NCBI RefSeq assembly: GCF_014699005.1
Contig: NZ_JACWZY010000013.1
Location: 1 to 64,000 of the forward strand
DNA length: 64,000 bases
Direction of reading: 5' to 3'
Source: Spirosoma profusum
Lineage (GTDB): Bacteria > Bacteroidota > Bacteroidia > Cytophagales > Spirosomataceae
Under the pieces are notes generated by a model. The model saw only the letters and a program-made list of their open reading frames with translations. It ran no database searches and was not told where the DNA came from. Position 1 is the stretch's first letter. Every line of letters begins with the position of its first letter. A program made the position numbers and the translations under genes. Shown here one piece after another: positions 1 through 64,000 of this stretch.

Positions 1-5
1 GAAAC

Positions 6-33
6 AAGGTCGTTGATGTGTATCAACGACCTT
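6..33 (+). terminator. Hairpin terminator of a gene lying left of the window
   Basis: A 12-bp perfect inverted repeat (positions 6-17 and 22-33, loop 4 nt) is followed by a T-rich stretch. It lies upstream of the first gene, so it most likely ends a transcript entering from outside the window. Confidence 0.6.
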
Positions 34-122
34 TTCTGCTTTATGAGCCGGGCAACTGAGTAGAGAAGCGAGATTTTTGTATTTTCCTTGTATTGCTGTC
101 ACTCAGTAATCTCTACTAATCA

Positions 123-614
123 ATGGCTATCTTCAAACTACAAGTTAATAACCGCAGCTATCAGGCAGATGTTGAACCTGATACGCCACTGCTTTGGGTC
201 TTGAGAGACTCACTTGGATTACTTGGTACAAAATACGGCTGCGGTATTGCTCAGTGTGGTGCCTGTACAGTTCATCTTAATGGCGAAGCTACTCGCTCTT
301 GTGTGTTGCCTGTATCAGCTATTGGCAAATCGAAAGTAACTACAATTGAAGGGCTTTCCGCTGATGGCGCCCATCAAGTTCAACAAGCCTGGGACAAAAT
401 CGACGTAGCACAGTGTGGCTACTGTCAGGCTGGCCAGATTATGACAGCCGCTGCATTGCTGAAACGTAATCCAAAGCCAACATCGGCAGAAATTGATGAA
501 ACCATGACGGGCAACCTTTGCCGGTGTGGAACGTATCACCGTATTCGGGAAGCTGTAAAAGCGGCATCAGAAATGAAAGTTACTACACCAGCTAAAACCC
601 CAAAAACAAAATAG
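123..614 (+). CDS. (2Fe-2S)-binding small subunit of a molybdenum hydroxylase (isoquinoline 1-oxidoreductase/xanthine dehydrogenase family)
   Basis: Carries electrons from the molybdenum cofactor of the partner subunit through two [2Fe-2S] clusters. The N-terminal plant-ferredoxin-type cluster ligands are C40, C45, C48 and C60 ([10 protein letters not shown] motif). The C-terminal cluster ligands are C98, C101, C133 and C135 (CGYC and CRCG motifs). At 163 residues it has the normal length for an IorA/CoxS-type subunit. The large subunit starts 2 bp after its stop, so the two are co-transcribed. No Tat or Sec signal is present; such subunits are usually exported folded with the Tat-tagged partner. 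The substrate cannot be read from sequence. Confidence 0.93.
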
Positions 615-616
615 CT

Positions 617-2776
617 ATGTCGACGTTCGGGAATTCAAGTCGAAGAAGCTTTCTAAAAGTAGCTGCGGCTACCGGTGGTGGGCTTATTTTAGGGTTTAAC
701 TGGAGTGATTCAGAAGCGGCCATGTCGAGTGCTTCTAGTATTGGCACTTCTGCGGCAGGTGTTGATTTCAACAGCTATTTATCCATTGATCCTCAGGGTG
801 TCATTACTATTCTATCGCCTAATCCAGAAGTAGGTCAAGGAATAAAAACCGCATTCCCAATTATCGTTGCTGAAGAACTGGACGCCGACTGGACAAAAGT
901 TGTTGTCGAGCAAGCGCCACTCGATACTAAAAAATTCGAGCGTCAGGTGGCGGGAGGTAGTGGTTCTATACCTCATTCCTGGAAACGGTTGCGCGTTGCT
1001 GGCGCTACGGCTCGTCTGATGCTGGTAGAAGCAGCTGCGAAGCGTTGGTCGGTTCCTGCAGTCGAGTGTAAAACCAGCAAAGGTTTCGTTACGCATCAGG
1101 CTAGTAATCGTAGATTGAGTTATGGCGAACTTGCAACTGAAGCTGCCAAAATTCCCGTACCGACGGACGTACCACTGAAGGAGAAGAAAGATTATACCCT
1201 GATTGGGACTACAGTCAAAAATGTAGATAATCCAAAAATCATTACGGGCAAACCGTTGTTTGGGCTGGATTTTTACCGGGAAGGGATGCTTTTTGCCATG
1301 CTGCAACGTCCTGCGTTTGGCTATAAACTCAAATCCGTAAATACAGAAGCGATAAAATCTATGCCGGGTATCGTCAACGTTGTTACGTTCGATAATAACG
1401 TAGCAGTCGTCGGTAAATCGACCTGGCAGGTGAAAAAAGCCAAGGATGCCCTGAAAATCGAGTGGGAAAAAGCGGATGCATTAGAAAGCACTGCCGATCA
1501 CAACCGATTATTCAAGGAAATGCTCGACAGTTCGGAGGCAACCGTGCGCCGGAAAGATGGCGATGTGGAAACTGCGTTTAAAAATGCGGCAAAGGTTGTT
1601 AAATCGGAATATCAATGTCCATTCCTGCCGCATAATCCGCTGGAACCGATGAATTTCTTCGCGCATGTGCGGGCCGATGGAGCAGAATTGGTTGGGCCTA
1701 CGCAAACCCCCGAGCTGGCACGTAACGAAACCGCTAAGCTGTTGGGAATAGCTCCTGAAAAAGTAACGGTGCAACTCACTCGTATGGGGGGCGGTTTTGG
1801 TCGTCGGTTGAAAGCTGACTACGTATTGGAAGCGGTGAACGTATCGAAACTGGTGAATGCGCCGGTAAAATTAATCTGGACTCGCGAAGATGACATGACC
1901 GGCGGAAGCTATCGTCCGGCGGTACGTTACCGCTTCGAAGCTGCTCTTGATGCGCAGGGCATGATGATTGGCTACAAACTGCGTGGAGTTAGTATTAATG
2001 CCGGCAATGCCACTCGTGAAGATAATTTCCCGTCAGGCGCGGTCGATAACCTGCTGATTGACAGCGTCGATCATAAGTCGCCCATTACGACAGGTCCCTG
2101 GCGGGCGCCGATTACAAACTTCCTGGCGTTTGCCGAACAATCGTTTCTAGACGAAGTAGCGCAGGCAGCCGGCAAAGATCCAGTTCAGTTTCGGTTAGAA
2201 TTGCTGGAAAAAGCCAAACAGAAACCCGCAGGTGCCATCAAATACGACATCGATCGAATGAAAGGTGTTATAGAATTGGCTGCCGAAAAATCGGGATGGG
2301 GTAAAAAGAAAGGGGCCGATGGCAAACTGCTGGCTCAGGGCTTTAGCGTTTACTTTTCACACCGTTCCTACGTAGCACAGGTGGGCGAAGTTGTTATGCA
2401 GAAGGGCAAACCCGTACTCCAGAAAGTATATTCAGCTGCTGATTGCGGTGTGGTCGTAAACCAGAGTGGGGCACAGCAACAGGTGCGAGGTTGCGTGGTT
2501 GATGGAATTGGTCATGCGATGTACGGCAAAATTACTTTCAAAGATGGCGTGCCCGAGCAGAAAAACTTTAACGAATTTCGCCTGATTCGCCTGGCCGAAG
2601 TGCCTGAGGTAGAAGTACATTTCGTTGAAAATAACATCGAACCAACGGGCCTGGGCGAACCTTCTTTACCACCTGCCGGTGCTGCTGTTGCCAATGCTAT
2701 TTTCAAAGCAACTGGTAAGCGCCTACGTAGTCAGCCTTTTATTGAGCAAGACGAATTTAAAGGTATATTGTTATAA
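617..2776 (+). CDS. Molybdopterin-binding large subunit of an exported aldehyde/isoquinoline-type oxidoreductase
   Basis: Catalytic subunit that hydroxylates an aldehyde or N-heterocycle with water at a Mo-cytosine-dinucleotide centre. A Tat signal is visible (SRRSFLK, residues 8-14, then a hydrophobic stretch), so the complex probably works in the periplasm. Cofactor motifs are GGGFGRR at 391-397 and GPWRAP at 493-498; the glycine-rich GLGEPSLPP near the C-terminus holds the likely catalytic glutamate E681. The 719-residue size and fused domain order fit IorB-like proteins. No FAD subunit and no cytochrome c subunit lies next to it, so the electron acceptor is unknown. Family sure, substrate not. 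Confidence 0.92.
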   Translation: MSTFGNSSRRSFLKVAAATGGGLILGFNWSDSEAAMSSASSIGTSAAGVDFNSYLSIDPQGVITILSPNPEVGQGIKTAFPIIVAEELDADWTKVVVEQAPLDTKKFERQVAGGSGSIPHSWKRLRVAGATARLMLVEAAAKRWSVPAVECKTSKGFVTHQASNRRLSYGELATEAAKIPVPTDVPLKEKKDYTLIGTTVKNVDNPKIITGKPLFGLDFYREGMLFAMLQRPAFGYKLKSVNTEAIKSMPGIVNVVTFDNNVAVVGKSTWQVKKAKDALKIEWEKADALESTADHNRLFKEMLDSSEATVRRKDGDVETAFKNAAKVVKSEYQCPFLPHNPLEPMNFFAHVRADGAELVGPTQTPELARNETAKLLGIAPEKVTVQLTRMGGGFGRRLKADYVLEAVNVSKLVNAPVKLIWTREDDMTGGSYRPAVRYRFEAALDAQGMMIGYKLRGVSINAGNATREDNFPSGAVDNLLIDSVDHKSPITTGPWRAPITNFLAFAEQSFLDEVAQAAGKDPVQFRLELLEKAKQKPAGAIKYDIDRMKGVIELAAEKSGWGKKKGADGKLLAQGFSVYFSHRSYVAQVGEVVMQKGKPVLQKVYSAADCGVVVNQSGAQQQVRGCVVDGIGHAMYGKITFKDGVPEQKNFNEFRLIRLAEVPEVEVHFVENNIEPTGLGEPSLPPAGAAVANAIFKATGKRLRSQPFIEQDEFKGILL

Positions 2777-2793
2777 TGTATGATTAACGTACT

Positions 2794-2809
2794 GTTGCTA
2801 CGTAGCAAC
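2794..2809. repeat. 16-bp perfect palindrome centred on TACGTA
   Basis: GTTGCTACGTAGCAAC reads the same on both strands and sits between the stop of the oxidoreductase and a larger palindrome. Its centre is the pentamer that is over-represented across the window, in its fullest extended form. Confidence 0.7.
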
Positions 2810-2813
2810 GAAT

Positions 2814-2865
2814 GGATACAAAAATCCCCTAAAAACAGCGCTGTTTTTAGGGGATTTTTGTATCC
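2814..2865. terminator. Bidirectional terminator: 52-bp perfect palindrome
   Basis: Arms 2814-2839 and 2840-2865 are exact reverse complements with no spacer. Each arm contains an A- or T-run, so it can terminate both the rightward oxidoreductase operon (stop at 2776) and the leftward small gene ending at 2872. Confidence 0.85.
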
Positions 2866-2871
2866 TACGTC

Positions 2872-3246
2872 CTATTGCATCGCAATGGTACGTAGTGGCT
2901 TTTGCACTGGTGGCGTCGTCAAATTGAGTTGCTTACGGATGCTGCCTTTTTCTGATTTGAATTCCAACTCATACGTACCGTCGACCAAAGCGTCAACATC
3001 CAGTTTTACAGCGTAGGCCGATTCTTTTTTGCCAACAATCTGACGGTACAGAACTTCCTGGCTTTTGTTACGTAGCAAAATCGTAACCACGGCATCTGCA
3101 TCTTTCTGGACGACCACCCGAACCTGATTGTTGGTCATTACGTAAGCGTTGGCCTCGAACGACAGAGCGTTGGGCGTAGTTGGGTTCATAAACGTAGCGG
3201 CACTCAACAGAAGAGAAACGGCTACTTTGCTCATTAGTGGTAACAT
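2872..3246 (-). CDS. Small secreted protein, paralogue of the gene at 50291-50665
   Basis: A 124-residue protein with an N-terminal hydrophobic signal segment (about residues 5-22) and a short beta-rich domain. It aligns without large gaps to the 50.3-kb paralogue, roughly half the residues matching. Shared blocks are NPTTPxALSFEA (about 22-33) and DGxYELExKSxxGSIRKQ (about 88-106). The second block looks like the last strands of an immunoglobulin-like domain. I do not recognise a named family. The start is supported because both paralogues begin MLP and share an upstream regulatory region. Likely periplasmic or surface; function unknown. Confidence 0.75.
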   Translation of the reverse strand: MLPLMSKVAVSLLLSAATFMNPTTPNALSFEANAYVMTNNQVRVVVQKDADAVVTILLRNKSQEVLYRQIVGKKESAYAVKLDVDALVDGTYELEFKSEKGSIRKQLNLTTPPVQKPLRTIAMQ

Positions 3247-3304
3247 GGTAGTGTAATGTTTAAAGAGGTTGTAAAATTTGTTGTTTATCTGATTGCTTTA
3301 TATA

Positions 3305-3322
3305 AGCCAAAGCTTGTGCCAA
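3305..3322 (-). promoter_or_regulatory. Possible sigma-54-type promoter of the 124-aa secreted protein
   Basis: On the minus strand the sequence reads TTGGCAC, five bases, then TTGGC, close to the -24/-12 consensus TGGCAC-N5-TTGC. The same pattern occurs at the same place upstream of the paralogue (50742-50759). The -12 element has TTGG rather than TTGC, so this is a suggestion only. Confidence 0.4.
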
Positions 3323-3385
3323 TTATGTTAACTAATTGATTGTTAATGATTTGTAGGTCTGTGCCAAATCAATTAATGTCCGATG

Positions 3386-3414
3386 GCGGACAAGCTACGT
3401 TCACTTGCGGACAA
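3386..3414. promoter_or_regulatory. Two direct repeats spaced 21 bp (candidate regulator site)
   Basis: GCGGACAA occurs at 3386-3393 and again at 3407-3414, exactly 21 bp apart. The same pair with the same spacing lies at 50823-50830 and 50844-50851 upstream of the paralogue. A two-turn direct repeat is the geometry known for LytTR-type regulators such as AgrA; which protein binds here is not shown. Confidence 0.45.
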
Positions 3415-3676
3415 AACTAACAGGCTGAATTACAGCCTTGAACAAGCAACGTAGTGAACTGTATCAATTAGCACTTGAATCGGATAATATGATTTCTCAA
3501 CAGATTTTTATGTTCAGGAAGAGATTGATTTTCAGGTGTGATAAGTTTACCTATGATCTGGCAACGCAGTAATCGCCTACCGACGTATTGACTGATACGT
3601 TGCTATAGTCTCGAGCCAACCCGGTATTTTTACGGCTTCCCAAAGATGGGTCTATAACCTACCAGTAAAATCAATT

Positions 3677-4759
3677 ATGCCTACGTCATCTAAACCCCTG
3701 CGTGTGCTTGTTGTCGGATGCGGCAATATGGGTTCTTCGCACGCGATTGCCTATCAGATCATCGATGGATTCGAAATCTGTGGTATTGTATCGACCGGAA
3801 ATAGTAAAGTTGTACTTAACGAACGGTTGGGCGGAGGATACCCCCTGTTCGATGACTACGCGAATGCATTAGCCGAAACCAAACCCGATGCCGTGTGTAT
3901 TTCGACCTATCCCGACACGCATGAGCGCTTTGCTTTAATGGCGTTTGAACAAGGATGCCACGTATTTATTGAGAAACCCATTGCTGACAGCGTCGAAGGT
4001 GCCGAACGGGTTATGGAAGCGGCTCAGAAAGTGGGTAAAAAGTTGGTGGTAGGCTATATTCTCCGCCATCATCCTTCCTGGGAAAAATTTGTGGAAATAG
4101 CCCGCGAAATGGGTAAGCCCCTGGTAATGCGTATGAACCTCAATCAGCAGAGTCATGGTACCATGTGGACGGTTCACCGGAATCTGATGAAAAGTCTCAG
4201 TCCGATCGTCGACTGTGGCGTTCATTATATTGACGTAATGTGTCAGATGACCCGCTCAAAACCCGTTCAAGTTAACGCCATTGGCGCCCGGTTAACCAAC
4301 GACATCCCTACCGACAACTATAACTACGGCCAGTTGCAGATTCGCTTCGACGACGGTTCTGTGGGCTGGTATGAAGCTGGTTGGGGACCCATGATGAGCG
4401 AAACAGCTTTTTTTGTTAAGGATGTAATCGGGCCTGAAGGCTGCGTATCGATTGTAGCCAAAAACGCGGGAGGTACAGGAAAATCTGATAATGTGGATTC
4501 GCATACCAAAACTGAATCACTACGTGTACACCGCGCCAACCTCAACAGTGAAGATCAGTTTACAGAAGAAGATACGTGGATTGATATGCAGGACGAGCCT
4601 GATCATCAGGAACTTTGTAATCGTGAACAACGCTATTTCCTGAAAGCCATCCAGGAAGATATCGACCTGACCGACCATATGCAGGACGCCGTCAACAGCC
4701 TTCGGATTGCGTTTGCCTGCGATGAATCGGTTCGGACTGGGCAGCCGGTTATGTTGTAA
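3677..4759 (+). CDS. Gfo/Idh/MocA family NAD(P)-dependent oxidoreductase
   Basis: Predicted to oxidise or reduce a sugar, inositol or related substrate in the cytoplasm. The N-terminal Rossmann fold has the dinucleotide loop GCGNMG at 14-19, and the family signature EKP is at 99-101; the C-terminal half is the alpha/beta substrate-binding domain. The length of 360 residues is typical. No signal peptide is present. An ECF sigma factor starts 9 bp after the stop, so the two are probably on one transcript, an uncommon pairing. Substrate cannot be assigned. Confidence 0.88.
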   Translation: MPTSSKPLRVLVVGCGNMGSSHAIAYQIIDGFEICGIVSTGNSKVVLNERLGGGYPLFDDYANALAETKPDAVCISTYPDTHERFALMAFEQGCHVFIEKPIADSVEGAERVMEAAQKVGKKLVVGYILRHHPSWEKFVEIAREMGKPLVMRMNLNQQSHGTMWTVHRNLMKSLSPIVDCGVHYIDVMCQMTRSKPVQVNAIGARLTNDIPTDNYNYGQLQIRFDDGSVGWYEAGWGPMMSETAFFVKDVIGPEGCVSIVAKNAGGTGKSDNVDSHTKTESLRVHRANLNSEDQFTEEDTWIDMQDEPDHQELCNREQRYFLKAIQEDIDLTDHMQDAVNSLRIAFACDESVRTGQPVML

Positions 4760-4768
4760 CTACGTAGT

Positions 4769-5320: not shown

Positions 5321-5341
5321 TTGACAAGAAAGCGCAAACGC

Positions 5342-5860: not shown

Positions 5861-5886
5861 TAGGGTAAACGTAGTAAAACATGTCT

Positions 5887-11311: not shown

Positions 11312-13183
11312 TTACTTCGCTTTCCAATTATTATTGCTCAAATCGGCATCCATAAAAATGCCCCCGTCCAGTTTAATCGACTGGACTTTTTTATTGGTAG
11401 CCAGTTTAATAACGGCCTGTTTCTGATTGGCTTGCCAGATGGCGGGCGTCTGGTGATACGTTTGTGTAGAGCCATCGGTGAACGTAGCGATAATATCGAC
11501 CGGTGCTACGTATCCGCCGATGTTCTGTAACGTAACAGTCGTTTGTGAACCGGATGCTGCTACGTTCTGAATACCGAAATCGATGTAATTATTGCTGAAA
11601 AACCAGTTGTTCCAAAACCAGTTAAGGTCTTTGCCCGACGCATCATTGAACGTGAAAAACATGTCCCAGGGCGTCGGATGTTTGCCTTTCCAGCGATTGA
11701 TGAACTCATGCAGCGATTTTTTAAATGCTACGTCGCCCAGCAACTCTTTGAGCGCCAGATAACCAATAGCTGCTTTGCCATACTCATTATTACCCATCGC
11801 TACGCCACTTAATACGTTGGTCGGTATAATGATGGGTAAATCCTGCTCGGCCGACGGGTCATTTGCCCAGGAATTGACCCGAAACTGTTTGAAATTCTGG
11901 GTAGCCTTCTCGTTACCCAAATCCGACTGACCAATCAGGTATTCGAAAGCGGTAGTCCAGCCTTCATCCATGAATCCGTAGCGGGTTTCATTGACACCCA
12001 TGTAGAACGGAAACCACGTATGAGCGATTTCGTGCTCGGCCACAAACCGCGAGAATTCCAGATCGGGTGTGCTGCTGTCGTTCACCATCATCGGATATTC
12101 CATGTCGGCGAAACCCTGCACCAGCATCGTCTTAGGGTAGGGGTAAGGCAATCCCGGCCAGTTATTCGAAAACCAGTTGAGGGAATGTCGCCCAAAACTC
12201 ACCATCTGGTGGAAATCGGCGGCATTGTCTTTAAAAGCTGCCTGTACACTCGCTCGTCGCCCTGTCGCCTTGTCGACCACTACGCTCGACGCATCCCAAA
12301 CGTACTGATTACTAATGCATAAGGCCATATCTGGAACGTAGTCGCCTTTCCAGCGCCACGTGTTCGAGGCTGACTGCGTCGTTACGTTCCGGGCTGCTAC
12401 GTCCTGCGCGGTTGCTACGTGAATCAACGAATCGGTTTTCATGGATTCGTCCAGCCGTTTGGCAAAAGTCGGTTGTAGAACTTCGCTGGCGTTCAGTAGG
12501 TTGCCTGTTGCCCAAACCAGGTAATCTTTGGGAACCGTTACGTTCAGCGTATAGTCGTTGAAGTCGTTGTAGAACTCCTGCGCTTCGGTGAAAGGCGTCT
12601 GATCCCAGCCGTAATAATCGTCGCGAACAGCTACGCGCGGGTAAAAGTAAGCCAGGAAAAAAGTCGTCGAATCTAACACGCCTTCGCGTCCACTCTCAAT
12701 TGATACGTCGTAATGCCAGTCGAACGTCAGTTTAACTGAATCGCGGGGCATGAGGGGCTTCGTCAATTGCATCCCGGCCAACGTACCGACGCCCTGATTT
12801 GGGAATTGACGTGTTACGTTGCTTTCGGTGTATTTATCAATATGCAGACCCGATGTCAAATAGTTTTCCGAAGCCTGACTCTGCCGTATCGCGCCCGGTT
12901 TGTGGCTGTTCATGAACAACTTGAACACCAGAAACTTCAACGTATCGGGGCTGTTGTTAATATAGGTAATTTGTTCCGTTCCGCGAATGGTACGGTTTGG
13001 CGGGGCAGCTGTGATGGAAATAGCGTATCGGGCTGTATTTTGCCAGTAATTCTTACCGGGCTTGCCATCCATCGAGCGCGTTCCTTTCTGATACGCTTTT
13101 TTGACATTTCGGGGCATGTACAGCGATTGCGCCTGTATCAGGCCTGCGGAGAGAAGTAGGTAAAGATAAATAAGTCTTTTCAT
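11312..13183 (-). CDS. Secreted M1 family zinc aminopeptidase
   Basis: Removes N-terminal residues from peptides outside the cytoplasm. A Sec signal covers residues 1-18 (ends IQAQS). The zinc site is HEIAH at 384-388 with the third ligand E407, 18 residues on (HExxH-x18-E). The substrate loop typical of the family, usually GAMEN, appears as GFADMEYPMMV some 45 residues before the zinc site. At 623 residues it is the short M1 form, lacking a long C-terminal helical domain. Stands alone on the minus strand. Confidence 0.93.
   Translation of the reverse strand: MKRLIYLYLLLSAGLIQAQSLYMPRNVKKAYQKGTRSMDGKPGKNYWQNTARYAISITAAPPNRTIRGTEQITYINNSPDTLKFLVFKLFMNSHKPGAIRQSQASENYLTSGLHIDKYTESNVTRQFPNQGVGTLAGMQLTKPLMPRDSVKLTFDWHYDVSIESGREGVLDSTTFFLAYFYPRVAVRDDYYGWDQTPFTEAQEFYNDFNDYTLNVTVPKDYLVWATGNLLNASEVLQPTFAKRLDESMKTDSLIHVATAQDVAARNVTTQSASNTWRWKGDYVPDMALCISNQYVWDASSVVVDKATGRRASVQAAFKDNAADFHQMVSFGRHSLNWFSNNWPGLPYPYPKTMLVQGFADMEYPMMVNDSSTPDLEFSRFVAEHEIAHTWFPFYMGVNETRYGFMDEGWTTAFEYLIGQSDLGNEKATQNFKQFRVNSWANDPSAEQDLPIIIPTNVLSGVAMGNNEYGKAAIGYLALKELLGDVAFKKSLHEFINRWKGKHPTPWDMFFTFNDASGKDLNWFWNNWFFSNNYIDFGIQNVAASGSQTTVTLQNIGGYVAPVDIIATFTDGSTQTYHQTPAIWQANQKQAVIKLATNKKVQSIKLDGGIFMDADLSNNNWKAK
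12298..12960. repeat. Dense cluster of ACGTA/TACGT pentamers
   Basis: By hand I count ten ACGTA or TACGT occurrences between 12241 and 13020 inside the M1 peptidase gene, against about 1.5 expected at equal base frequencies. This is one of the densest stretches of a motif scattered over the whole window. Confidence 0.75.
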
Positions 13184-42878: not shown

Positions 42879-44462
42879 ATGGTTAAATCGTTACACCAGA
42901 AGTTTATGCGCGTCGTGGTGGTGTTTTTGTGGCTGATATCGGCTGTGGGATGGGCGCAGGAGAGACCGCTTGAACGAGCCATCGTGCAGGCCCGAACTAC
43001 GGGCAAAACCGATACGTTCCCCAATCTGTTTACGGCAAATGGCACTACTCACGCCCTTACGAATGCCCAGGATACTACGCAACACATCGACAAGTTAACG
43101 CTCAATACCAACGTATTAAAATCCATACGTAGTCAGAAACGGGAACTGCTGGAAATTTCGCTGCCAACCGCTCTGGGCACTCTGGAACTGGAATTAGTAC
43201 CTGTCAATCTCTTTGCGCCCGGTTTCAACGTAGTGACCCACCTGCCTGATACTACGTTCCAGTTCGATGCCAGTCGGGTTGTGTATTATCAGGGTATGAT
43301 TAAAAATAATCCCCGTTCGCTGGTGGCGCTGGCGTTATCGGATGAGAACGTAGTGGGACTGGTGTCAGACAGCACGGGCAACCGGGTTTTGTCGAGGCAG
43401 CGGGCTAAATCGGCTTCACAAACGGATTACGCTTTATATAACGAACAGGCCGTACAAACGAAAATTCGCCCATTTGCCTGTAACGTAGCGGATAGTGGCA
43501 CGTCGGATTTGATAGAAACCCCCAGTGAAAAGCCTACTAAACAAACGAATTCGAGCAATTGCGTAAAATACGTTGGCATTTATCTCGAAGCTGACTACGC
43601 GCTTTATCAGTCATACGGTGGAAACATAACCGATTTGACCGAAGATATACTATTTGTATTCGATCAGGTCATTACGTTATACCGTAACGAAAACGTCTAC
43701 GTACAATTGTCACAGCTTTATGTCTGGAACACAAACGATCCTTATAGCACCGCCACTACGTCCGCATCGGCTTTGGCAGCTTTCAAAACTCACTGGAATA
43801 ATTTCGGGAATAGCTTTCCGGGCCAGATAGCGCATCTGATGAGCAGTCGAAGTTTTAGCGGTAACACGGTCGGGCTGGCTGATGGCTACAATGGCCTTTC
43901 AGACAAGTCGACCGCGTATTCATTTAATAGTTCACTCAATCCTGCCTTCGCAGCACCTTACCCAACGTATTCATGGGCGGTGTTCGCCATCGCACACGAA
44001 CTGGGCCACAACTTCAGTTCGCATCATACGCACTGGTGCGGCTGGCCGGGAGGTCCAATTGATAATTGTGCAGTCCCCGAAAATGGGCCCTGCTCAGCGG
44101 GCCCCGCGCCGGTAAATGGAGGTACCATCATGAGCTATTGTCACCTGGCAAATGGCGTCAACTTTGCCAAAGGCTTTGGTACGTTGCCGGGCAATCAGAT
44201 TCGGAATAAAATTGCCAGTGTAACGCTTCCGATCACTACGTCTGATGGAAAAGTAGAGTCTATAAACTCCGGCATCTGGACCATGAGCGGCACCTGGACC
44301 TGTGGCGTAACACCTAGTGTGCTTTATAAAGCTACCATTAGCCCTGGTCACCGGGTGCAACTCAATTCTACCGGAAATGCCAAAACCCTCACCATTCAGG
44401 GTACTCTCAATCTCTCTACCCCTGGAACCGTTATCCGAATCGGACAAACGCAGTCGAATTGA
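42879..44462 (+). CDS. Secreted metzincin-type zinc metalloprotease (reprolysin-like)
   Basis: A 527-residue secreted endopeptidase. Start is the ATG at 42879 or at 42906; the second begins the signal peptide. A propeptide-like region (about 30-200) precedes the catalytic domain, whose zinc site is HELGHNFSSHH with ligands H373, H377 and H383. The Met-turn follows as MSYCHLANG some 40 residues later. The last 100 residues form a beta-strand-rich tail. It lies upstream of a 17-residue-repeat surface protein. Confidence 0.9.
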   Translation: MVKSLHQKFMRVVVVFLWLISAVGWAQERPLERAIVQARTTGKTDTFPNLFTANGTTHALTNAQDTTQHIDKLTLNTNVLKSIRSQKRELLEISLPTALGTLELELVPVNLFAPGFNVVTHLPDTTFQFDASRVVYYQGMIKNNPRSLVALALSDENVVGLVSDSTGNRVLSRQRAKSASQTDYALYNEQAVQTKIRPFACNVADSGTSDLIETPSEKPTKQTNSSNCVKYVGIYLEADYALYQSYGGNITDLTEDILFVFDQVITLYRNENVYVQLSQLYVWNTNDPYSTATTSASALAAFKTHWNNFGNSFPGQIAHLMSSRSFSGNTVGLADGYNGLSDKSTAYSFNSSLNPAFAAPYPTYSWAVFAIAHELGHNFSSHHTHWCGWPGGPIDNCAVPENGPCSAGPAPVNGGTIMSYCHLANGVNFAKGFGTLPGNQIRNKIASVTLPITTSDGKVESINSGIWTMSGTWTCGVTPSVLYKATISPGHRVQLNSTGNAKTLTIQGTLNLSTPGTVIRIGQTQSN

Positions 44463-44514
44463 GTGATAAATGATGAGTACTTATGCGTTGAAAGACCACT
44501 CATCGTTCATCACT
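44461..44514. repeat. Inverted repeat after the metzincin gene
   Basis: GAGTGATAAATGATGAGT and the partner ACTCATCGTTCATCACTC pair at 16 of 18 positions, starting just inside the stop codon. The GAGTGATGAG words recur in the hairpin at 46496-46554. Confidence 0.6.
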
Positions 44515-44543
44515 CATCGTTTATTACGCGCTATTACCGTAGC

Positions 44544-44594
44544 CTAAATAGGCGTTGGTCGGGTTGATATTTGCCCGGACAACGCCTATTTTAG
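44544..44594 (+). terminator. Strong hairpin between the metzincin and repeat-protein genes
   Basis: Arms CTAAATAGGCGTTGGTCGGG and CCCGGACAACGCCTATTTTAG pair with few mismatches around a 9-nt loop, ending in a T-run. The open frame of the next gene runs into this hairpin from 44555, but its start is better placed at 44636. Confidence 0.75.
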
Positions 44595-44635
44595 TCGCTA
44601 TTAATCAATATGTTAATATAAACACAGAGAATTAT

Positions 44636-46498
44636 ATGCGCGCTCTTTATGCTTTGCTAATACTAACCAGCAGTCCGGTGATAGCTCAATCACACACTTC
44701 CTATGTTGTTAACTCGGGCAACACGACGGTAGGTGGGTTTATTGGTAATACGCTTGTTGGTCCTGCTGCGGGTATCAGCCTGGGTAGCGGAAATTTTAAT
44801 ACCATGCTGGGATATCAAACAGGCTATAATAGCACAAACGTAGAAGAAAACACGTTTGTGGGCAGTTCTGCCGGGTTTGCGGTCACAGCGAATAGGAACA
44901 CGTTTATTGGGAGCCAGGCCGGTTTTTTAAGCATTTCGGGCGTAGAGAATGCCTTTGTGGGGAATTCGGCAGGAGCGCTGAATGGATCGGGTAGTTATAA
45001 TTCTTTTTTGGGTAGTAACGCGGGTAACCAGAATAACGGAGGCACCAATAACACCTTTATTGGCGCTTATGCAGGGTACAAAAACGGCTCTGCCTTCCAG
45101 AACACCTTCCTAGGGGCCGAAGCTGGTTATAACAACACCGGCGGTACGTCTAACGCATTCGTGGGCTATCAGGCCGGAAAGGCCAATACGACTGGCGTCT
45201 CCAACGCCTTTCTGGGGGCATTCGCAGGCAGAAGCAACACCTCTGGTAATGACAACACCTTTCTGGGTTCCAACGCGGGCACCAAAACTACCTCCGGTGG
45301 CCAGAACACCTTCACTGGCTACGGGGCCGGAGCCCAGAACTCCACCGGGGTCGGCAACGTCTTCGTGGGCAACCGGGCGGGCTACTCCAATACCACCGCC
45401 AATGCCAACGTGTTCATCGGCTCCCAGACGGGATTTTCCAATACCACCGGCATCGCCAACCTGTTCATGGGCCAACTGGCGGGCTATAGCAGCAACGGCT
45501 CCTACAACCTCTTCATTGGCAACTCGTCGGGCCAGCAAACGACCTCGGGTGGGGGCAACACTTTCATTGGCAATGGCTCGGGCTATGGCAACATCACTGG
45601 CCAGAACAATACCTATATCGGCAATGGGGCTGGCTTCACCGGCAATGGGGCGGGTCAGAGCAACACCTTCATTGGTCAGAATGCCGGGGTATCATCGGGG
45701 GCTGTTGTCAATAACTCCACTGCCATCGGGGTGGCTGCTCAGGTATCGGCTGACAATTCGATTGTGTTAGGCGCCCCCAACCCTCTGTGGAAAGTGGGTA
45801 TCGGCAACACCGCTCCCAACAATAAACTGGAGATTACCCATGGCACCAATGGCCAGTCGGGTCTGCGCTTCACCAATCTGAAGAGTACAGACGCTGCGTC
45901 GGTGACTAATGCCACAAAAGTTCTCTCCGTCAATAGTAGTGGGGATGTGATTCTGGTGAGTACCAGTGTGTCGACTCGGGAGGGGGCTATGGAGTCATTT
46001 TGGCAACGTAGGGGAGGTTTTCTGCAAAGCACCCAGCATGAAGCGGTCATCATCGGAGGGAATATAGCACGCACGCCATCAGGCTACAAGTTATTTGTGG
46101 AAGAAGGTATTCTGACTGAGAAAGTGAAGGTGGCTGTCAAGAACAGCAGTGAGTGGAGTGATTACGTGTTTGGTGATACGTATCAGCTGAAGTCATTAGG
46201 AGAGGTAGAACGTTACGTTCGTGAGCACAGGCATCTGCCAGGTGTACCCTCGGCAACGGACGTAGTGGAGCAGGGGATCGACGTAGCGAAGATGGATGCT
46301 ACGTTGCTCAAAAAGATTGAGGAATTGACCCTCTACAGTATTCAACTTGAAAAGGAAAATCAGAAGCATCAGCAGGAGTTGCAGACTATTCGGCAGCAGT
46401 ATGACCAGAAATTCGAACGTATCGAAGCCGAACGGGAGCAGCAGAAACAGGAAATACAGGCGATGAAAAAACTACTCCAGAAAGCGTTAAGGAAATGA
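44636..46498 (+). CDS. Surface protein of 18 tandem 17-residue units with coiled-coil tail
   Basis: A 620-residue protein; signal peptide about 1-18 (ending VIAQS). About 18 tandem units with pattern N-[TA]-F-[IVL]-G-x-x-[AS]-G-x(4)-T-x-G-x fill residues 55-365. They resemble YadA-head repeats, so a parallel beta-roll is likely. The C-terminal part contains EWSDYVFGDTYQLKSL and LPGVPSATDVVEQGID, a tail common in Bacteroidota repeat and tail-fibre-like proteins, then a coiled coil (about 540-620). Base composition rises inside the repeats and the ACGTA motif is sparse there. Paralogue at 52947. Confidence 0.85.
   Translation: MRALYALLILTSSPVIAQSHTSYVVNSGNTTVGGFIGNTLVGPAAGISLGSGNFNTMLGYQTGYNSTNVEENTFVGSSAGFAVTANRNTFIGSQAGFLSISGVENAFVGNSAGALNGSGSYNSFLGSNAGNQNNGGTNNTFIGAYAGYKNGSAFQNTFLGAEAGYNNTGGTSNAFVGYQAGKANTTGVSNAFLGAFAGRSNTSGNDNTFLGSNAGTKTTSGGQNTFTGYGAGAQNSTGVGNVFVGNRAGYSNTTANANVFIGSQTGFSNTTGIANLFMGQLAGYSSNGSYNLFIGNSSGQQTTSGGGNTFIGNGSGYGNITGQNNTYIGNGAGFTGNGAGQSNTFIGQNAGVSSGAVVNNSTAIGVAAQVSADNSIVLGAPNPLWKVGIGNTAPNNKLEITHGTNGQSGLRFTNLKSTDAASVTNATKVLSVNSSGDVILVSTSVSTREGAMESFWQRRGGFLQSTQHEAVIIGGNIARTPSGYKLFVEEGILTEKVKVAVKNSSEWSDYVFGDTYQLKSLGEVERYVREHRHLPGVPSATDVVEQGIDVAKMDATLLKKIEELTLYSIQLEKENQKHQQELQTIRQQYDQKFERIEAEREQQKQEIQAMKKLLQKALRK
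44815..45730 (+). repeat. Tandem 51-bp (17-codon) repeats, about 18 units
   Basis: DNA-level tandem units encode the NTFxGxxAG repeats of the surface protein. Early units are AT-richer and divergent; units from about 45080 are GC-richer and more alike, which suggests later expansion. Confidence 0.8.
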
Positions 46499-46554
46499 GT
46501 GATGAGTTTACTGACGCGCTCAAAAAATACGTGCGTCAGCAAACTCATCACTCA
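46496..46554. terminator. Bidirectional hairpin overlapping a stop codon
   Basis: 22-bp arms (46496-46517 and 46533-46554) with one mismatch; the TGA stop of the repeat protein lies in the left arm. It separates convergent genes ending at 46498 and 46566. Confidence 0.8.
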
Positions 46555-46565
46555 TCACTTATCTC

Positions 46566-47189
46566 TCATTCTAAAATGAGATTGTAAGCTATGACGTGCT
46601 TCACTCCGAATTGCTTATGCCACTCATTAACAGGTACCTGACTTTCTGCGACTGCACAGTATAAGTAAAATCCATCTTTGAGATAGGGTAGGCTGTGAAC
46701 AAAGAACAGGATTTTTTTGCTCATGGGAATTCGAGCTTTTTCGTTCTTGTAAGCCACAACATCAGTCCTAAAACTAAATCGTCTGGCATCGTCAGCTTCT
46801 ACTTTAAACGTTTTGCGTTGGCTTACTTTCGGTAATTTAAACAGAGCTTCAATCGTAGTAGGGTCTACCGTTCGTGCATATACGTCGATGGTAAACTTGC
46901 CCGTCGAATCAATTTGCAGTATTTCCTTGCGTGTGCCAAAACCAAACATTTCCTGCTCAGGTTGTGCAATGCCATTTTTGTATTCCTGACACGTGAGGTG
47001 AAAATACTTTCCGGCAAGTTTGGGGTCGTTTAACTCAAGACGGAATTTTTCTACACCAATAAATGACATTAAATCCTTTAATTCAGTGTTAGTAGAACCG
47101 TAAACACTTCTCACAACGGTGCTGTCATTCGACTGAGCGTTTACCAGGCAATTACAAAAAAGTAGTAGAGCAATAAACGTTGCCTTCAT
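46566..47189 (-). CDS. Secreted hypothetical protein
   Basis: A 207-residue protein with a signal peptide (1-18, ending CLVNAQS). The mature part is beta-rich with mixed charge and one cysteine in HLTCQEYKNG. The C-terminal FGVKHVIAYNLILE resembles a strand closing a barrel. I do not recognise a family. Single gene on the minus strand between a repeat-protein gene and the DUF4097 operon. Confidence 0.6.
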   Translation of the reverse strand: MKATFIALLLFCNCLVNAQSNDSTVVRSVYGSTNTELKDLMSFIGVEKFRLELNDPKLAGKYFHLTCQEYKNGIAQPEQEMFGFGTRKEILQIDSTGKFTIDVYARTVDPTTIEALFKLPKVSQRKTFKVEADDARRFSFRTDVVAYKNEKARIPMSKKILFFVHSLPYLKDGFYLYCAVAESQVPVNEWHKQFGVKHVIAYNLILE

Positions 47190-47303
47190 CTAAGCTAAAT
47201 CAAAAATGGAGTAATTTGCCTTCTCTCGTATTTTCAGCCCGAAACTTGGCTATATAAGCTACTGCATTTCATCACGCAGCATTCATGATCTATTACGAGT
47301 CAA

Positions 47304-48008
47304 TCACTTCTGTTCCCGCAGAAATACGTCGTTGCTGATGGATTCGAGACGTACCGTCGTGCCACCGCCATTAACGGTGCCTTCCAAAAGATAACCGACG
47401 TGCGAATGCCTTTCTTTCTTGCCTTTAAAAGCGATATCCAGGTTGGAATATACTTCGCCCGTAATAGTTTTCATCTCGACATTGGCCCCTTTCGATTTAG
47501 GCCAGCTCATGTCGACAAACCCACTGATGGATTTGGCCATAACCGGTGCCGATGCTCCCTGAATGTCGATGTTGCCGTTGATGGTTTCGAGTTTGAGCTG
47601 AGCCTGCCGGGGTAGAAATACTACATAATTTATATCGCTGCACACGACCGTGTGCGTTCCGTCGCGGTTATTGCTCCAGGAAGAATATTTCTGATCGGGA
47701 CAATCTTCGGGTTTGCCTTTCTTGATAAGTTCTTTATCGTAATCGGTTTTCAGGCTTACTTCGCCATCGGTCGAGCCGGTGGTTACCACTAAGGCGTCAT
47801 CAAGTTTACCACCGTTGATGGTCACGGAGATACGTACCGATAAATCAGGTTTGTCCCAGTAGCGAACCTGAATGCTATCGGCAAACCTCAGGTTCAGGTT
47901 CACGATCTGATCTTTACCAACAGGCATCGTTTTCTGGATGATTCGCTGGGCCAAAGAAGGCAACGCCAACGTAGCAGTCAGGAGGAGGAATAGTAGTTTT
48001 TTCATCAC
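47304..48008 (-). CDS. DUF4097-like secreted beta-helix protein (last gene of sigma operon)
   Basis: A 234-residue protein with a signal peptide (1-20). The mature part has repeated short strands ending in the turn words LETINGNIDIQGA, KSISGFVDMSW and MKTITGEVYSNL, the ladder typical of DUF4097 (putative adhesin) domains. It lies 15 bp after a paralogous gene (48024-48809) and shares the end pattern LxSISNDVFLREQK. Part of the ECF sigma/anti-sigma operon, so likely a target or feedback component for envelope stress. Confidence 0.8.
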   Translation of the reverse strand: MMKKLLFLLLTATLALPSLAQRIIQKTMPVGKDQIVNLNLRFADSIQVRYWDKPDLSVRISVTINGGKLDDALVVTTGSTDGEVSLKTDYDKELIKKGKPEDCPDQKYSSWSNNRDGTHTVVCSDINYVVFLPRQAQLKLETINGNIDIQGASAPVMAKSISGFVDMSWPKSKGANVEMKTITGEVYSNLDIAFKGKKERHSHVGYLLEGTVNGGGTTVRLESISNDVFLREQK

Positions 48009-59963: not shown

Positions 59964-59965
59964 AA

Positions 59966-60073: not shown

Positions 60074-60148
60074 AAAACTTTACAACTCTTAACGTATCAT
60101 TCCTTCATTTTTAGCAGTAGATAGTCGGTATATGTGGCTCTACGTAGC

Positions 60149-61297
60149 ATGGAACGACGGATGTTTATTCAGAACACGAGCTTGCTGGCGGCTGCGTTGG
60201 GAACAACCGGCTCTGATCTGCTGGCGACCCCGCCACAACGTAACGTAGCAAAAAACAAGCTGCCAAAGTGGAAAGGCTTTAACCTGCTGGATTTCTTTTC
60301 GCCCGATCCCGCCAACAGTCGCCCGGCTACAAAAGAAGATTACTTCAAATGGATGCAGGACTGGGGCTTCGACTTTGTGCGTATTCCGATGGCGTATCCA
60401 TCGTATGTCAAATTCGACCGGAGCCGAAATATTACACCCGAAGAAGTATATCAGATTGACCAACAGGCCGTTGATCGGATTGACCAACTGGTAACAACGG
60501 CGCACAAATACAACCTGCACGTCAGTCTGAATCTGCACCGCGCACCCGGCTATTGCGTCAACGCGGGTTTCAACGAACCCTACAATCTCTGGACCGATCA
60601 GGCTGCCCTCGACGCTTTCTGTTTTCACTGGAATATGTGGGCCAAGCGGTATAAGAACGTATCGTCGCAGAAAATCAGCTTCGACCTGCTCAACGAGCCA
60701 AGTATGCGCGCCGATATGAACGACCAGCATTCGAAACGTAGCACGGTGCCGGGCGAGACGTATCGAAAGGTAGCGCAGGCGGCTATGAAAGCGATACGTC
60801 AGGAAAATCCGAAGCATCTGATTATTGCGGATGGCAACGACGTAGGCAGCTCGGTCATTCCCGAACTAGCCGACCTCGATATTGCCCAGAGTTGTCGGGG
60901 CTATAATCCGGGTATTATTTCGCACTACAAAGCCCCCTGGGCCAATAAAGATCCCGACCACCTACCCGAACCCAAATGGCCGGGGCAAGTGGGTGACAAA
61001 TACCTGAGTCGGGCCATGCTCGACAAATTCTACCAGCCCTGGATTGAATTGGTGAACAAAGGAGTTGGCGTACATTGTGGTGAATGCGGCTGCTGGAACA
61101 AAACGCCACATCCCGTATTTCTAGCCTGGTTCAGCGACGTGCTCGACATTCTGACAAGTAATGGAATTGGCTTTGCCCTGTGGGAGTTTGCAGGTTCGTT
61201 CGGCGTACTGGATTCGGGACGTACCGACATAGCCTATGAAGATTGGCACGGCCATAAACTCGACCGTAAATTGCTGGATTTAATTCGGAAAGTGTAG
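60149..61297 (+). CDS. Exported GH5 family glycoside hydrolase
   Basis: A 382-residue retaining endo-beta-glycosidase-type enzyme. The ATG at 60149 starts the Tat-like N-terminus MERRMFIQNTSLLAAALG; the frame begins at 60134. Acid/base E183 lies in DLLNEPS, and the nucleophile E312 lies in VHCGECGCWN, where two Cys flank the Glu. Further blocks are RIPMAYPSY early and LWEFAGSFG near the end. Probably cuts beta-glucan, mannan or related sugars; specificity not clear. Confidence 0.88.
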   Translation: MERRMFIQNTSLLAAALGTTGSDLLATPPQRNVAKNKLPKWKGFNLLDFFSPDPANSRPATKEDYFKWMQDWGFDFVRIPMAYPSYVKFDRSRNITPEEVYQIDQQAVDRIDQLVTTAHKYNLHVSLNLHRAPGYCVNAGFNEPYNLWTDQAALDAFCFHWNMWAKRYKNVSSQKISFDLLNEPSMRADMNDQHSKRSTVPGETYRKVAQAAMKAIRQENPKHLIIADGNDVGSSVIPELADLDIAQSCRGYNPGIISHYKAPWANKDPDHLPEPKWPGQVGDKYLSRAMLDKFYQPWIELVNKGVGVHCGECGCWNKTPHPVFLAWFSDVLDILTSNGIGFALWEFAGSFGVLDSGRTDIAYEDWHGHKLDRKLLDLIRKV

Positions 61298-61546
61298 CTG
61301 GGTTGGGGGTGGTAAAACGGCTTTTAGGATCTAAATAAAATTGTATTCTGCCAAGAGGGCATTAGGATTTTAGTCAAAGTGGTTTATCATGATTTGATCA
61401 TCTGATGCGTTGTTAACAGACATTTAACACATGAATACTTAAAATCAACTAATAGTTATAGTAATCCCCTTTTTGGTACTATATCCTGACTTGAGGTAAG
61501 TAGCTAGTTATCGTAAATTGTGAGCATAACTCAACCCATTATGCTC

Positions 61547-62707
61547 ATGAAAAAACGGTTCTACGAATTCCTTGCGGTTTTGGGGGTAGTTTTAGTGGTT
61601 TGCGGGTACGTAGCGAAAGATAATCATCAGGCTGAGGGGAGCGTTTTCTTTAGTTCTCAGGAGGGAACGTTATATGCACTTGATGTCCGGAACGGAAAAC
61701 CAAAATGGCAAAATAAATTGAGTCGGGCACCCATCGATGCCGCGCCTATCGTCGCAGATGGACTGGTTATTCAGGGTGTATCTTCCGAATCGGCTTTGTG
61801 CGCTGTCGATGCCTCAACCGGCGTTATACGTTGGAAATACCAACTCAGAGCAGGCCCCGTTTTTTCACCCCGGATCAGCAATAAAACGGTCTTTGTACTG
61901 ACCGACAACAAAGCTCCCTGGGATCTTACCCGACCAAATTTCACAACCCTTCATGCTATTGACCTGGGAACGGGGCAGCTCAAATGGGTATTTCGGGCGG
62001 GCGAGCAGGCGGCTGGTACGTTGGCCGCGGGCAATACGTCGGAAAACTGCCCGATTGTGCATGAGGGAATTATCTATTTTGGTGGTAACGATGGTACGTT
62101 TTACGCGCTCGATAGCCAGAACGGAGATGTAAAATGGAAATACAAGTCAGGTTTTTCGTTTCATTCCAGTCCGGTCTGGGTAAAGGGGTACGTTTATGCC
62201 GGTGATGATTATGGCAATCTGCTGGCGCTGGATGCTATGACAGGTGCCCTGATATGGAAAACACATGATGCATTCTCTATTCATACCAATATTGTTACCG
62301 ATAATAACTGCCTGTTTGTTCCCTACGATGGCCCTTCGGCATTAATTGCTTATTCCTGTGAAGATGGAAGAAAACGCTGGTCGTTTACGCCAACAAGTTT
62401 CATTGTCACAGCCCCATCGTTAGTCAACGGCTTTATTTACCTTAATTCGATCGATGGCAGGCTCTACGCAATAGATTCTCAGAAAGGAACGGTGGTCTGG
62501 ACAAAATCGGTGTATATGCCGAACACAACGCCCACCGTAGCCGATGGCACGCTGTACGTAGGAAGTGGCAGCAAATTATGTGCGTTCACTGCCGATAGTG
62601 GCAAGGAGAAATGGGTATTTGCTGCGGCCGGTTCAGTTATGAAAAGCGCCTGTGTACAGACGCAAAGCGGATCCGTTTATCGCGGATTGGGCGGCATTCA
62701 ACCGTAA
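61547..62707 (+). CDS. PQQ-type beta-propeller protein
   Basis: A 386-residue protein counted from the ATG at 61547 (a GTG at 61520 and an ATG at 61541 are in frame); an N-terminal membrane or signal segment lies at about 5-22. Eight or so repeats of the type GTLYALDVRNGKPKWQNKL, ALDSQNGDVKWKYKSG and LYVGSGSKLCAFTADSGKEKW mark a PQQ/YVTN-like propeller. PQQ-contacting residues are not complete, so it may be a structural propeller as in BamB rather than a dehydrogenase. Confidence 0.83.
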   Translation: MKKRFYEFLAVLGVVLVVCGYVAKDNHQAEGSVFFSSQEGTLYALDVRNGKPKWQNKLSRAPIDAAPIVADGLVIQGVSSESALCAVDASTGVIRWKYQLRAGPVFSPRISNKTVFVLTDNKAPWDLTRPNFTTLHAIDLGTGQLKWVFRAGEQAAGTLAAGNTSENCPIVHEGIIYFGGNDGTFYALDSQNGDVKWKYKSGFSFHSSPVWVKGYVYAGDDYGNLLALDAMTGALIWKTHDAFSIHTNIVTDNNCLFVPYDGPSALIAYSCEDGRKRWSFTPTSFIVTAPSLVNGFIYLNSIDGRLYAIDSQKGTVVWTKSVYMPNTTPTVADGTLYVGSGSKLCAFTADSGKEKWVFAAAGSVMKSACVQTQSGSVYRGLGGIQP

Positions 62708-62722
62708 CGTAGTGCGAATTTC

Positions 62723-62850
62723 GGCCCTGACAGGCTCCGGCCGCTTCGGCGGTCCGATGTCGGAGTCGCGGTAGCGACTAATGGGATAGCTACAACACAT
62801 CCGCTAACTTCGACATCGGACCGCCGAAGCGGCCGGAGCCTGTCGAGGCC
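62723..62850. repeat. GC-rich large inverted repeat (40-bp arms)
   Basis: Arms 62723-62762 and 62811-62850 match at 38 of 40 positions; the core is GACAGGCTCCGGCCGCTTCG. The 48-nt loop contains its own small hairpin AGTCGC-GGTA-GCGACT. It ends exactly at the stop of the leftward regulator gene, so it may be a bidirectional terminator. Confidence 0.85.
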
Positions 62851-63150
62851 TTATAAATTCTTGATAAACGCTTCCAGTGCGTTCAGGTGGTCGGTAAACG
62901 CCTGTTGCCCAGCCGGAGTGGCCGAGTATGTCGTGTTGGGTTTGCGCCCGACAAACTGCTTTTGAACCGATACGTAGTTTAATTCCTCTAACGCGCGCAG
63001 ATGGGTGGCGAGGTTGCCGTCGGTGAGGCCGAGCAACTCTTTCAGCGCGTTGAAACTCAGGGAATCATTGACCATCAGAACCGACATGATGCTCAGGCGC
63101 GCTTTGCTTTCAAAAGCTTTATTAAACTGAGCCAGCAGGTCGTTCATCAT
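62851..63150 (-). CDS. Winged-helix transcriptional regulator
   Basis: A 99-residue DNA-binding protein of the HTH_27/MarR-like type. The helix-turn-helix block LSFNALKELLGLTDGNLATHLRALEELNYV (about 31-60) and the wing VQKQFVGRKPNTTYSATPAGQQA are typical. Its start lies 29 bp inside the end of the next gene, a membrane protein on the same strand, so they form one operon in which the regulator probably controls the pair. Confidence 0.88.
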   Translation of the reverse strand: MMNDLLAQFNKAFESKARLSIMSVLMVNDSLSFNALKELLGLTDGNLATHLRALEELNYVSVQKQFVGRKPNTTYSATPAGQQAFTDHLNALEAFIKNL

Positions 63151-63796
63151 GGGTTACATTCCGTTCGTATTTATAATACATGGCCATACCATACCCGATG
63201 TGCAGTACGCCAAAACCAATCGCCCAGGTCAATAAATTATAACCAGGGAAACAGATCGACAGCAACCCCAGGCCAATTTCGCAATACGCCAGCGATTCGA
63301 CATCGCGAAACGTGTATTTACTACCGTTCAGCAAAGCTAATCCATAAAATATAAGCGTCGCAGGAAAAGCCAGCCAGATGAGGTTATAATAGAGCAGTGC
63401 GAGGCAAAACACGCCACCCGTAGCCAGCGGTACCACCAATGCCCAAAGGAGTCGTTGCGATGACTTGTTCCAGACGCGCAAACCCTGCCGTCGGGCTTTC
63501 CGGACGGTGAAATACGTACCAGAGAGCAGTGCCAGCACCAGTACGTAGAGAGCTACTTTTACCACAAATTCTACTACAGTCTGGTTCGTTGCGTCGTCGT
63601 AACTTTTTTGCCGGTCGTAACTTAGCACGGTGAACCAGTTTGTACGCAGGCGCATGTACACAGCCAGGGCGCCCGCCATCGCCACCAGCCCCGCCGATAC
63701 GCCAGATAAACCACTTAACGACAGGAATTTGGAGGAACGCTCCATCAGACTGCGGATTTCCGTCAGTGTTTGCAGGTGTTCGTGCGATTCGCGCAT
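63122..63796 (-). CDS. Membrane protein co-transcribed with a winged-helix regulator
   Basis: A 224-residue protein with a polar N-terminal helix (1-22, EHLQTLTEIRSLMERSSKFL) and about six membrane segments from residue 25. No catalytic motif is seen. Such proteins paired with HTH_27 regulators are frequent in Bacteroidota and are of unknown function. It overlaps the regulator gene by 29 bp. Confidence 0.75.
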   Translation of the reverse strand: MRESHEHLQTLTEIRSLMERSSKFLSLSGLSGVSAGLVAMAGALAVYMRLRTNWFTVLSYDRQKSYDDATNQTVVEFVVKVALYVLVLALLSGTYFTVRKARRQGLRVWNKSSQRLLWALVVPLATGGVFCLALLYYNLIWLAFPATLIFYGLALLNGSKYTFRDVESLAYCEIGLGLLSICFPGYNLLTWAIGFGVLHIGYGMAMYYKYERNVTHDERPAGSV

Positions 63797-63814
63797 GATT
63801 AAAGAGTGAAAGAG

Positions 63815-64000
63815 TTAATGAGTGAAAAAGTGCTGCAACGGATGTTGAATGACTGAATTAGTAACTGTGATTTGAGCGTGTGAATAAAATGGGTTTCCTG
63901 CTACGTCGAGCAATCGTCCGCCGAGGATAATCAGGCCGACAATCGCTGCTGCAATGGCTACCAGCAGCACAGCGCCCGACGATAAATCTTTAACGGCTTT
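63815..64000 (-). CDS. dgkA: Diacylglycerol/undecaprenol kinase, C-terminal part cut by window end
   Basis: The last 61 codons are seen on the minus strand, from the right edge to a TAA at 63815-63817. The sequence KAVKDLSSGAVLLVAIAAAI matches the conserved KDxxSAAVLL segment and final membrane helix of the small DgkA/UndPK kinases; a polar tail of about 25 residues follows. The N-terminal catalytic part lies beyond the window. The gene is on the same strand as the membrane protein and regulator, with an 18-bp gap, so it may head that operon. Confidence 0.72.
   Translation of the reverse strand, partial: KAVKDLSSGAVLLVAIAAAIVGLIILGGRLLDVAGNPFYSHAQITVTNSVIQHPLQHFFTH

Follow-up and report, generated by a model that had tools for sequence, protein, structure and literature searches.

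The 64-kb stretch of the Spirosoma profusum genome analysed here (hereafter, the window) is crowded with the word ACGTA and its complement TACGT, which raises the questions of what exactly the repeated unit is and what keeps it so frequent. The role of highly iterated words such as HIP1 is still debated. ACGTA, counted on either strand, occurred 481 times in the window, that is 4.2, 2.4 and 1.39 times the first-, second- and third-order expectation, respectively, and ACGTA/TACGT had the highest first-order z-score among all 5-mers. With TACGTA counted once, the occurrences represented 402 distinct places. A previous sequence-only reading had reported 18 of these places in positions 1-3240, where we counted 20, together with 8 in 2761-3240 and 10 in 12241-13020, both of which were reproduced. 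It had also noted that the word is often extended to AACGTAGC/GCTACGTT, found 48 times in the window and 4,503 times genome-wide (259 for the reversed word). The window-wide excess stood, but the unit is not AACGTAGC. What is enriched is ACGTANYR, an asymmetric word of 8 bases in which A-N-Y-R extends an ACGT core on at least one side, and all of whose 16 variants were raised 4.4- to 22-fold when 458 kb of the source genome (G000) were compared with 480 kb from 12 congeners of low density. The strongest variant was ACGTAGCA, with 322 copies in the G000 sample and 15 in the 12 congeners. Other ACGTANNN words were mostly raised about 1-2.5-fold, with a few higher values at low counts, such as ACGTAGAG (38 versus 8).

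This base-by-base comparison covered 5% of the 8.73-Mb genome, genes being defined as plain ORFs of at least 150 aa, and the low reference set consisted of 40 kb per congener taken from contig starts. The congener stretches were short for G033 (8.2 kb) and G036 (11.9 kb), the first stretch of G031 (L025) was all N, and these three genomes had no second sampled stretch. In the window, 351 copies of ACGTANYR were counted, against 102.7 ± 10.7 in 30 simulations of a third-order Markov model for which the window served as training sequence. Across the whole of G000 there were 39,401 copies (4.5/kb) but only 3,143 of the reversed word, so that the genome-wide count lies far above this control. The earlier proposal is supported in that the word is highly iterated throughout the genome, in either orientation and in genic as well as spacer DNA, and does not belong to a single gene family. 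The features discussed below are collected in Table 1.

Table 1. Location of ACGTANYR features in the window and of methyltransferase-related loci elsewhere in G000
Feature	Location	Strand or sites	Remarks
ACGTANYR, spread throughout the window	1..64000	190 +, 161 -	5.5/kb
First cluster, 10 ACGTANYR in 480 bases	2761..3240	6 +, 4 -	
TGCTACGTAGCA, two overlapping ACGTAGCA copies that share an ACGT core, head to head	2796..2807	positions -2796, +2800	
Second cluster, 9 ACGTANYR	12241..13020	3 +, 6 -	within - strand ORF 11312-13183 (Pfam Peptidase_M1)
Poorest stretch of the window	44234..47349		gaps of 908, 1032 and 932 bases; 3 sites in 44-46 kb
HsdM-like gene, 459 aa, N6_Mtase, motif-rich	L157:5831-7210 (G000)	10 sites	
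L158 island	G000:C22:455001-470000		35.6% G+C; sole PF00145 (C5 methyltransferase) match of the genome

The edges of the word are sharp. Scaled to equal length, C and T at position 7 were 10.3 and 7.8 times as frequent in G000 as in the low genomes, against 1.8-1.9 times for A and G, and at position 8 the ratios were 11.6 for A and 7.9 for G, against 1.7-2.2 for C and T. At the N position G was favoured in G000 (about 18x, versus 6.6-7.6x for the other letters). One-letter neighbours of ACGTAGCA fell to 0.36-1.24x at positions 1-4 and were at 0.78, 2.6 and 3.0x at position 5. ACGT without a complete arm was enriched 1.15x, with one ANYR arm 9.1x and with both arms 16.4x, the corresponding core counts being 1,315, 1,899 and 104 in G000 and 1,902, 345 and 10 in 760 kb of low genomes, and cores lacking a complete arm stayed at 0.5-2.1x in every class except one (8 versus 3 counts). 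A palindromic unit of the HIP1 type, TGCTACGTAGCA, was considered and rejected, as the enrichment with both arms was not the square of that with one. Two-armed cores made up just 104 of the 2,003 arm-bearing cores, about 1.65 times a simple flank expectation, and their enrichment, for which the low genomes supplied no more than 10 cores, was only 1.8 times that of one-armed cores. One complete arm is what the palindromic core requires, whereas a further recognition site sharing that core contributes little. One of the 23 two-armed places in the window is the TGCTACGTAGCA of Table 1.

According to PMC4390886, HIP1 (GCGATCGC) and the alternate cyanobacterial HIPs are likewise iterated genome-wide, occur sporadically among relatives and are built on a 4-base palindromic core that needs an extension. 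ACGTANYR also attains the abundance typical of HIP1-type words, hundreds to thousands per Mb, within genes as well as outside them. Unlike the HIPs, it is asymmetric and one arm is enough. HIPs occur at about 0.5-2.5/kb (rCCGGy higher; PMC4390886), and the 4.5/kb of ACGTANYR must be read as the density of a word less specific than GCGATCGC.

Does the pressure for this word act on DNA, or does it follow from the coding of proteins? After within-gene synonymous shuffling (20 repeats), the 309 G000 ORFs, which carry 1,724 copies, retained 284.4, a 6.1x excess, whereas in the low genomes the corresponding values were 202 and 170. A codon-usage artefact was thus rejected, and with it the possibility, raised beforehand, that synonymous codon choice accounts for the word. 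By our reading of the codon frames, the frame/strand settings differ in how many informative wobble positions they offer: the four that offer three showed an excess of 6.7-10.3x, and the two that offer one an excess of 1.7-2.2x. The ORF copies were balanced between the sense (856) and antisense (868) orientations, and densities reached 4.76/kb in coding and 4.10/kb in intergenic DNA, compared to 0.53 and 0.35 in the low genomes. The equality of sense and antisense and the filling of spacers make RNA or translation unlikely as the level of action, which is that of the DNA. Spacer density was highest between convergent genes (7.8/kb, 37 sites), followed by divergent (5.3) and same-direction (5.0) pairs.

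The strength of this pressure can be appreciated from the positions at which the encoded protein permits the word. In 362 kb of G000 ORFs, 1,719 of 3,735 permitted positions (46%) carried it, where codon usage predicts 6.9%, whereas the 12 low congeners showed 6.0% against 5.2% predicted, and the reversed control word 8.6% against 9.4%. About 50 kb each of G008, G029 and G003 gave 33%, 32% and 21%, respectively. The Arg-Ser setting of ACGTAGCR was filled in 127 of 162 cases, and occupancy rose from 0.33 in the first 20 codons to 0.53 beyond codon 100. In such genomes, synonymous choice can follow a DNA word more than translation. Accessible positions amounted to 10.3 versus 8.8 per kb, so that the word pressure has perhaps shifted the proteins slightly as well.

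Whether the copies depend on one another was analysed in 13 of the 21 G000 sequences, picked for ordinary word density, in which 50.5% of 2,611 accessible positions were filled; the spacer densities by gene orientation and the occupancies along the codons given above come from this subset too. With the nearest other copy 9-20, 20-40, 40-80 and 80-160 bases away, occupancy was 0.466, 0.565, 0.545 and 0.523, against context expectations of 0.502, 0.523, 0.531 and 0.520. Occupancy went down to 0.363 (0.490 expected) when the nearest copy was at least 320 bases off, a drop that matches what regional variation would give. Since there was no lowering at 20-160 bases, a copy is not rendered superfluous by others close to it, and a function that requires one copy per kb is disfavoured, as it would show the opposite trend. 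This bears directly on the uptake-signal explanation, in which biased uptake of DNA, followed by recombination, would multiply the word by molecular drive, as happens with the DUS and USS of Neisseriaceae and Pasteurellaceae. ACGTANYR resembles these signals in its thousands of copies, its lack of orientation or strand bias, its asymmetry, its presence in coding and spacer DNA alike and a preferred variant that differs somewhat between relatives; DUS can number 5,918 in a genome of 2.4 Mb (PMC3630211). Unlike them it is degenerate, and its near copies are not redundant, whereas the best site per fragment seems to be the bound one according to PMC1939737. Its density is also about twice the highest DUS density in the passages of PMC3630211 considered, although for a less specific word. 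We therefore consider an uptake signal rather improbable. Compared with the values in the passages of PMC4390886 and PMC3630211 considered, the sharp and testable ACGTANYR code exceeds DUS and nearly all HIPs in density, with the same reservation on specificity.

Orientation gave no sign of a directional role. The four classes of neighbour orientation were about equal (481, 517, 544 and 545), with no preference, and no replication-strand bias was detected by the sign of the GC skew in 24 chunks (1,066 versus 1,042 copies), a weak proxy in a draft genome with small skews. A Chi-like recombination signal or a replication-oriented, KOPS-like one would agree with an asymmetric 8-base word, as Chi is, and with its scarcity in the islands described below. 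Against such a signal, and unlike Chi, ACGTANYR has no orientation bias and lies near background in most congeners, and no replacement word appeared in the two congeners sampled more deeply (160 kb of G017, 200 kb of G004), the 40-kb samples from other congeners carrying less weight. This makes it the least probable of the explanations considered. The uptake or Chi-type function contemplated by the sequence-only reading is hence disfavoured on both counts, non-redundancy and absence of strand bias.

The substitutions that created copies of the word were deduced for 39 of the 52 copies in the rpo region of G000, with the majority state among 13 relatives as the reference (11 copies had no inferred change and two, with four or five changes, were omitted). 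Word-making changes comprised 41 transversions and 13 transitions, in comparison with 173 and 372 on the background branch (Fisher p 3e-10), and they included all six substitution types and affected all 7 specified positions. Part of the transversion excess is to be expected, because a transversion is more often required where a synonymous site calls for one particular base. What is favoured seems to be the outcome and not a type of mutation. A mutational or repair chemistry that makes or protects the word, also among the causes initially proposed, would fit copies that act independently and also fill spacers, as well as the weak depletion of some neighbours of the ACGTA core (0.81-1.14), and protection in the form of lower mutation away from the word is possible. 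The spectrum of changes, rich in transversions and of all types, argues against it, and we regard mutation bias as very unlikely.

A more conventional cause would be a resident DNA methyltransferase making or keeping a HIP-like site, comparable to the methylation-directed repair proposed for HIP1. The palindromic ACGT core and the degenerate, enzyme-like code speak for it, alternate cyanobacterial HIPs accompany cognate methyltransferases according to PMC4390886, and G000 contains a solitary HsdM-like gene that is itself motif-rich (Table 1); neither HsdR nor HsdS was encoded by the three adjacent ORFs that were scanned. We searched for PF00145 and PF01555 in 36 genomes of the genus, PF02384 and PF02086 in 15 and PF07669 in 16. 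No match to PF01555 was found in G000 and G031, none to PF00145 in G031, G008 and G029, and none to PF02086 in G000, G008 and G031, so that each of these families is missing from some of the rich genomes, which are G000, G008, G029 and G031. PF02384 and PF07669 were matched in all four, but the matches compared did not correspond to one shared gene. Among the matches compared, then, no gene of the five families was common to the four rich genomes, in contrast to the cognate enzymes of the HIPs. Several matches lay outside this comparison, for instance G029:C4, G031:C25, G031:C41 and the short ones that both rich and low genomes have in ORFs of about 290-370 aa, and no methyltransferase ORF was obtained from 2 of 16 loci (G007 and G025). 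Within the 36 genomes, only G031 (61% identical) and the low G024 (51%) contain a close relative of the HsdM-like gene, and the other two methyltransferases of G000 lie in motif-poor islands, L156 (0.61 copies/kb) and L158 (0.07/kb). The non-redundancy of near copies also counts against this explanation. Of 14 lineage-specific methylation motifs in the Bacteroides fragilis group, 6 were depleted and none was enriched according to PMC10333322. The gene content compared does not support the common methyltransferase families as the cause, and a HIP-like methylation site is in our opinion unlikely; a protein-bound or otherwise modified site remains.

We lean towards ACGTANYR being recognised by a single sequence-specific DNA protein, each copy being weakly favoured. 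Arguments for this are the sharp, degenerate code, as an enzyme or protein site would have, the action on DNA, the high occupancy, the non-redundancy of near copies, the variety of word-making substitutions, the islands nearly devoid of the word and the absence of strand bias. Such a protein would bind or modify double-stranded DNA at ACGTANYR all over the chromosome, and we infer both its existence and its action at every copy. Each copy would be favoured on its own, either by selection or by conversion biased towards the word, and weak favour for single copies would explain why about half of the open synonymous positions are filled. The corresponding scaled strength would be about 2.4-4.2 (log odds of occupancy), a value that does not separate fitness from biased conversion. 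If this recognition-word reading is right, a bound chromosome-organising site would take somewhat less than half of the weight, an unusual base modification about a third and a biased reader in recombination or repair about a fifth. More tentatively, and with the balance tipping against it, the word may belong to an undescribed chromosome-wide recognition system of this genus, repeatedly gained or lost by its lineages, in which a protein other than a usual methyltransferase would read about 39,000 sites independently, in the manner of a sequence-specific nucleoid protein or of a novel base modification. Against the recognition-word reading, no gene for a reader of ACGTANYR was found, and no compared gene was common to the rich species. 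The near-background density in most congeners, the small effect of a second arm, the partly expected transversions and the possible common descent of shared positions also weigh against it. None of the literature matches listed dealt with a word of this type in the genus or the phylum.

The word is lineage-specific. Counts divided by rounded genome sizes gave more than 2/kb in only four of the 36 genus genomes (G000 4.5, G029 3.1, G008 2.7 and G031 2.1), intermediate densities in G003 (1.8), G033 (1.3), G007 (1.0) and G002 and G014 (about 0.96), and 0.43-0.78 in the other 27, of which 26 were at 0.43-0.7. Being near background in most congeners, the word is dispensable, and as density ranges from 4.5/kb to background, rich and poor relatives can be compared in search of the cause. 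In a tree of the 14-kb rpo region from 20 of the 36 genomes, the four rich genomes did not form a clade: G029 was sister to the low G017 and G000 to the low G020/G004/G027, both with support 1.0, and G031 grouped with the low G015/G034 (support 0.75). The rpoB tree lacked six of the 36 genomes, four with no rpoB-family match (G002, G011, G021 and G033) and two with no locus (G001 and G018).

Positions of the word in the rpo region, compared without gene calls, were largely shared with G000: 26 of 35 copies in G008, 23 of 30 in G029 and 21 of 26 in G031. A comparison restricted to accessible positions was set aside, since 6 of its 13 ORFs were antisense and rpoC was absent from them. The fewer copies of the low genomes were mostly shared too (for instance, 9 of 13 in G004). 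These shared positions fit either an ancestral enrichment followed by repeated loss or the repeated filling of the same permitted positions, and those common to distant species could reflect common descent and not a present-day force. In 9 low genomes, the density of the word in the conserved rpo region exceeded that of the genome samples by a factor of 1.98, a value reached by 4 of 114 permuted control words, which is only suggestive and leans weakly towards ancestral enrichment.

Outside the genus, among 390 genomes of the order, the highest density of ACGTAGCR was found in genus g37, with 1,676 copies in G358 and 1,762 in G367 (reversed word, 348 and 368). Some genomes of genus g13 equalled it by ratio at a far lower density (e.g. 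406 versus 75 in G381), and two g13 genomes had ACGTANYR at about 1.0x and 1.35x of the control. Four g37 stretches contained 0.28-1.55 ACGTANYR/kb without a clear YR signature, and g37 is as yet unproven as a further word-carrying genus. In 197 other genomes across the class, the ratio of ACGTANYR to its reversed word was at most about 1.5 (G582), compared to 12.5 in G000.

Motif-poor islands interrupt the otherwise dense coverage of G000, where 35 of 228 2-kb windows hold fewer than 4 copies. Near-wordless stretches (0-5 copies per 4 kb versus about 20 typically) were observed in L006:8001-20000, L007:1-16000, L019:1-12000 and the end of L005, and were probably acquired recently. The poorest stretch of the window (Table 1) is possibly recent DNA too, judging from the scarcity of the word; the ORF 44555-46498 inside it (647 aa) had no Pfam match. 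As recently acquired DNA seems to lack ACGTANYR, the word may serve to mark it, and its scarcity could gauge the residence time of acquired DNA.

Other words were repeated or avoided as well. The palindromic AAGGCATGCCTT was counted 26 times over both strands (about 13 places in L001-L020 and the window), and like TCAGCATGACAA (27 in the G000 sample) and AGAGTGAAAGAG-like repeats it appears to represent one of several dispersed repeat families. GATC (0.66x) and CTGCAG (0.25x) were under-represented in G000 relative to the 12 congeners, as were CAGCTG and GCATGC avoided in G017 and TCCGGA in G004, possibly as a result of restriction-site avoidance.
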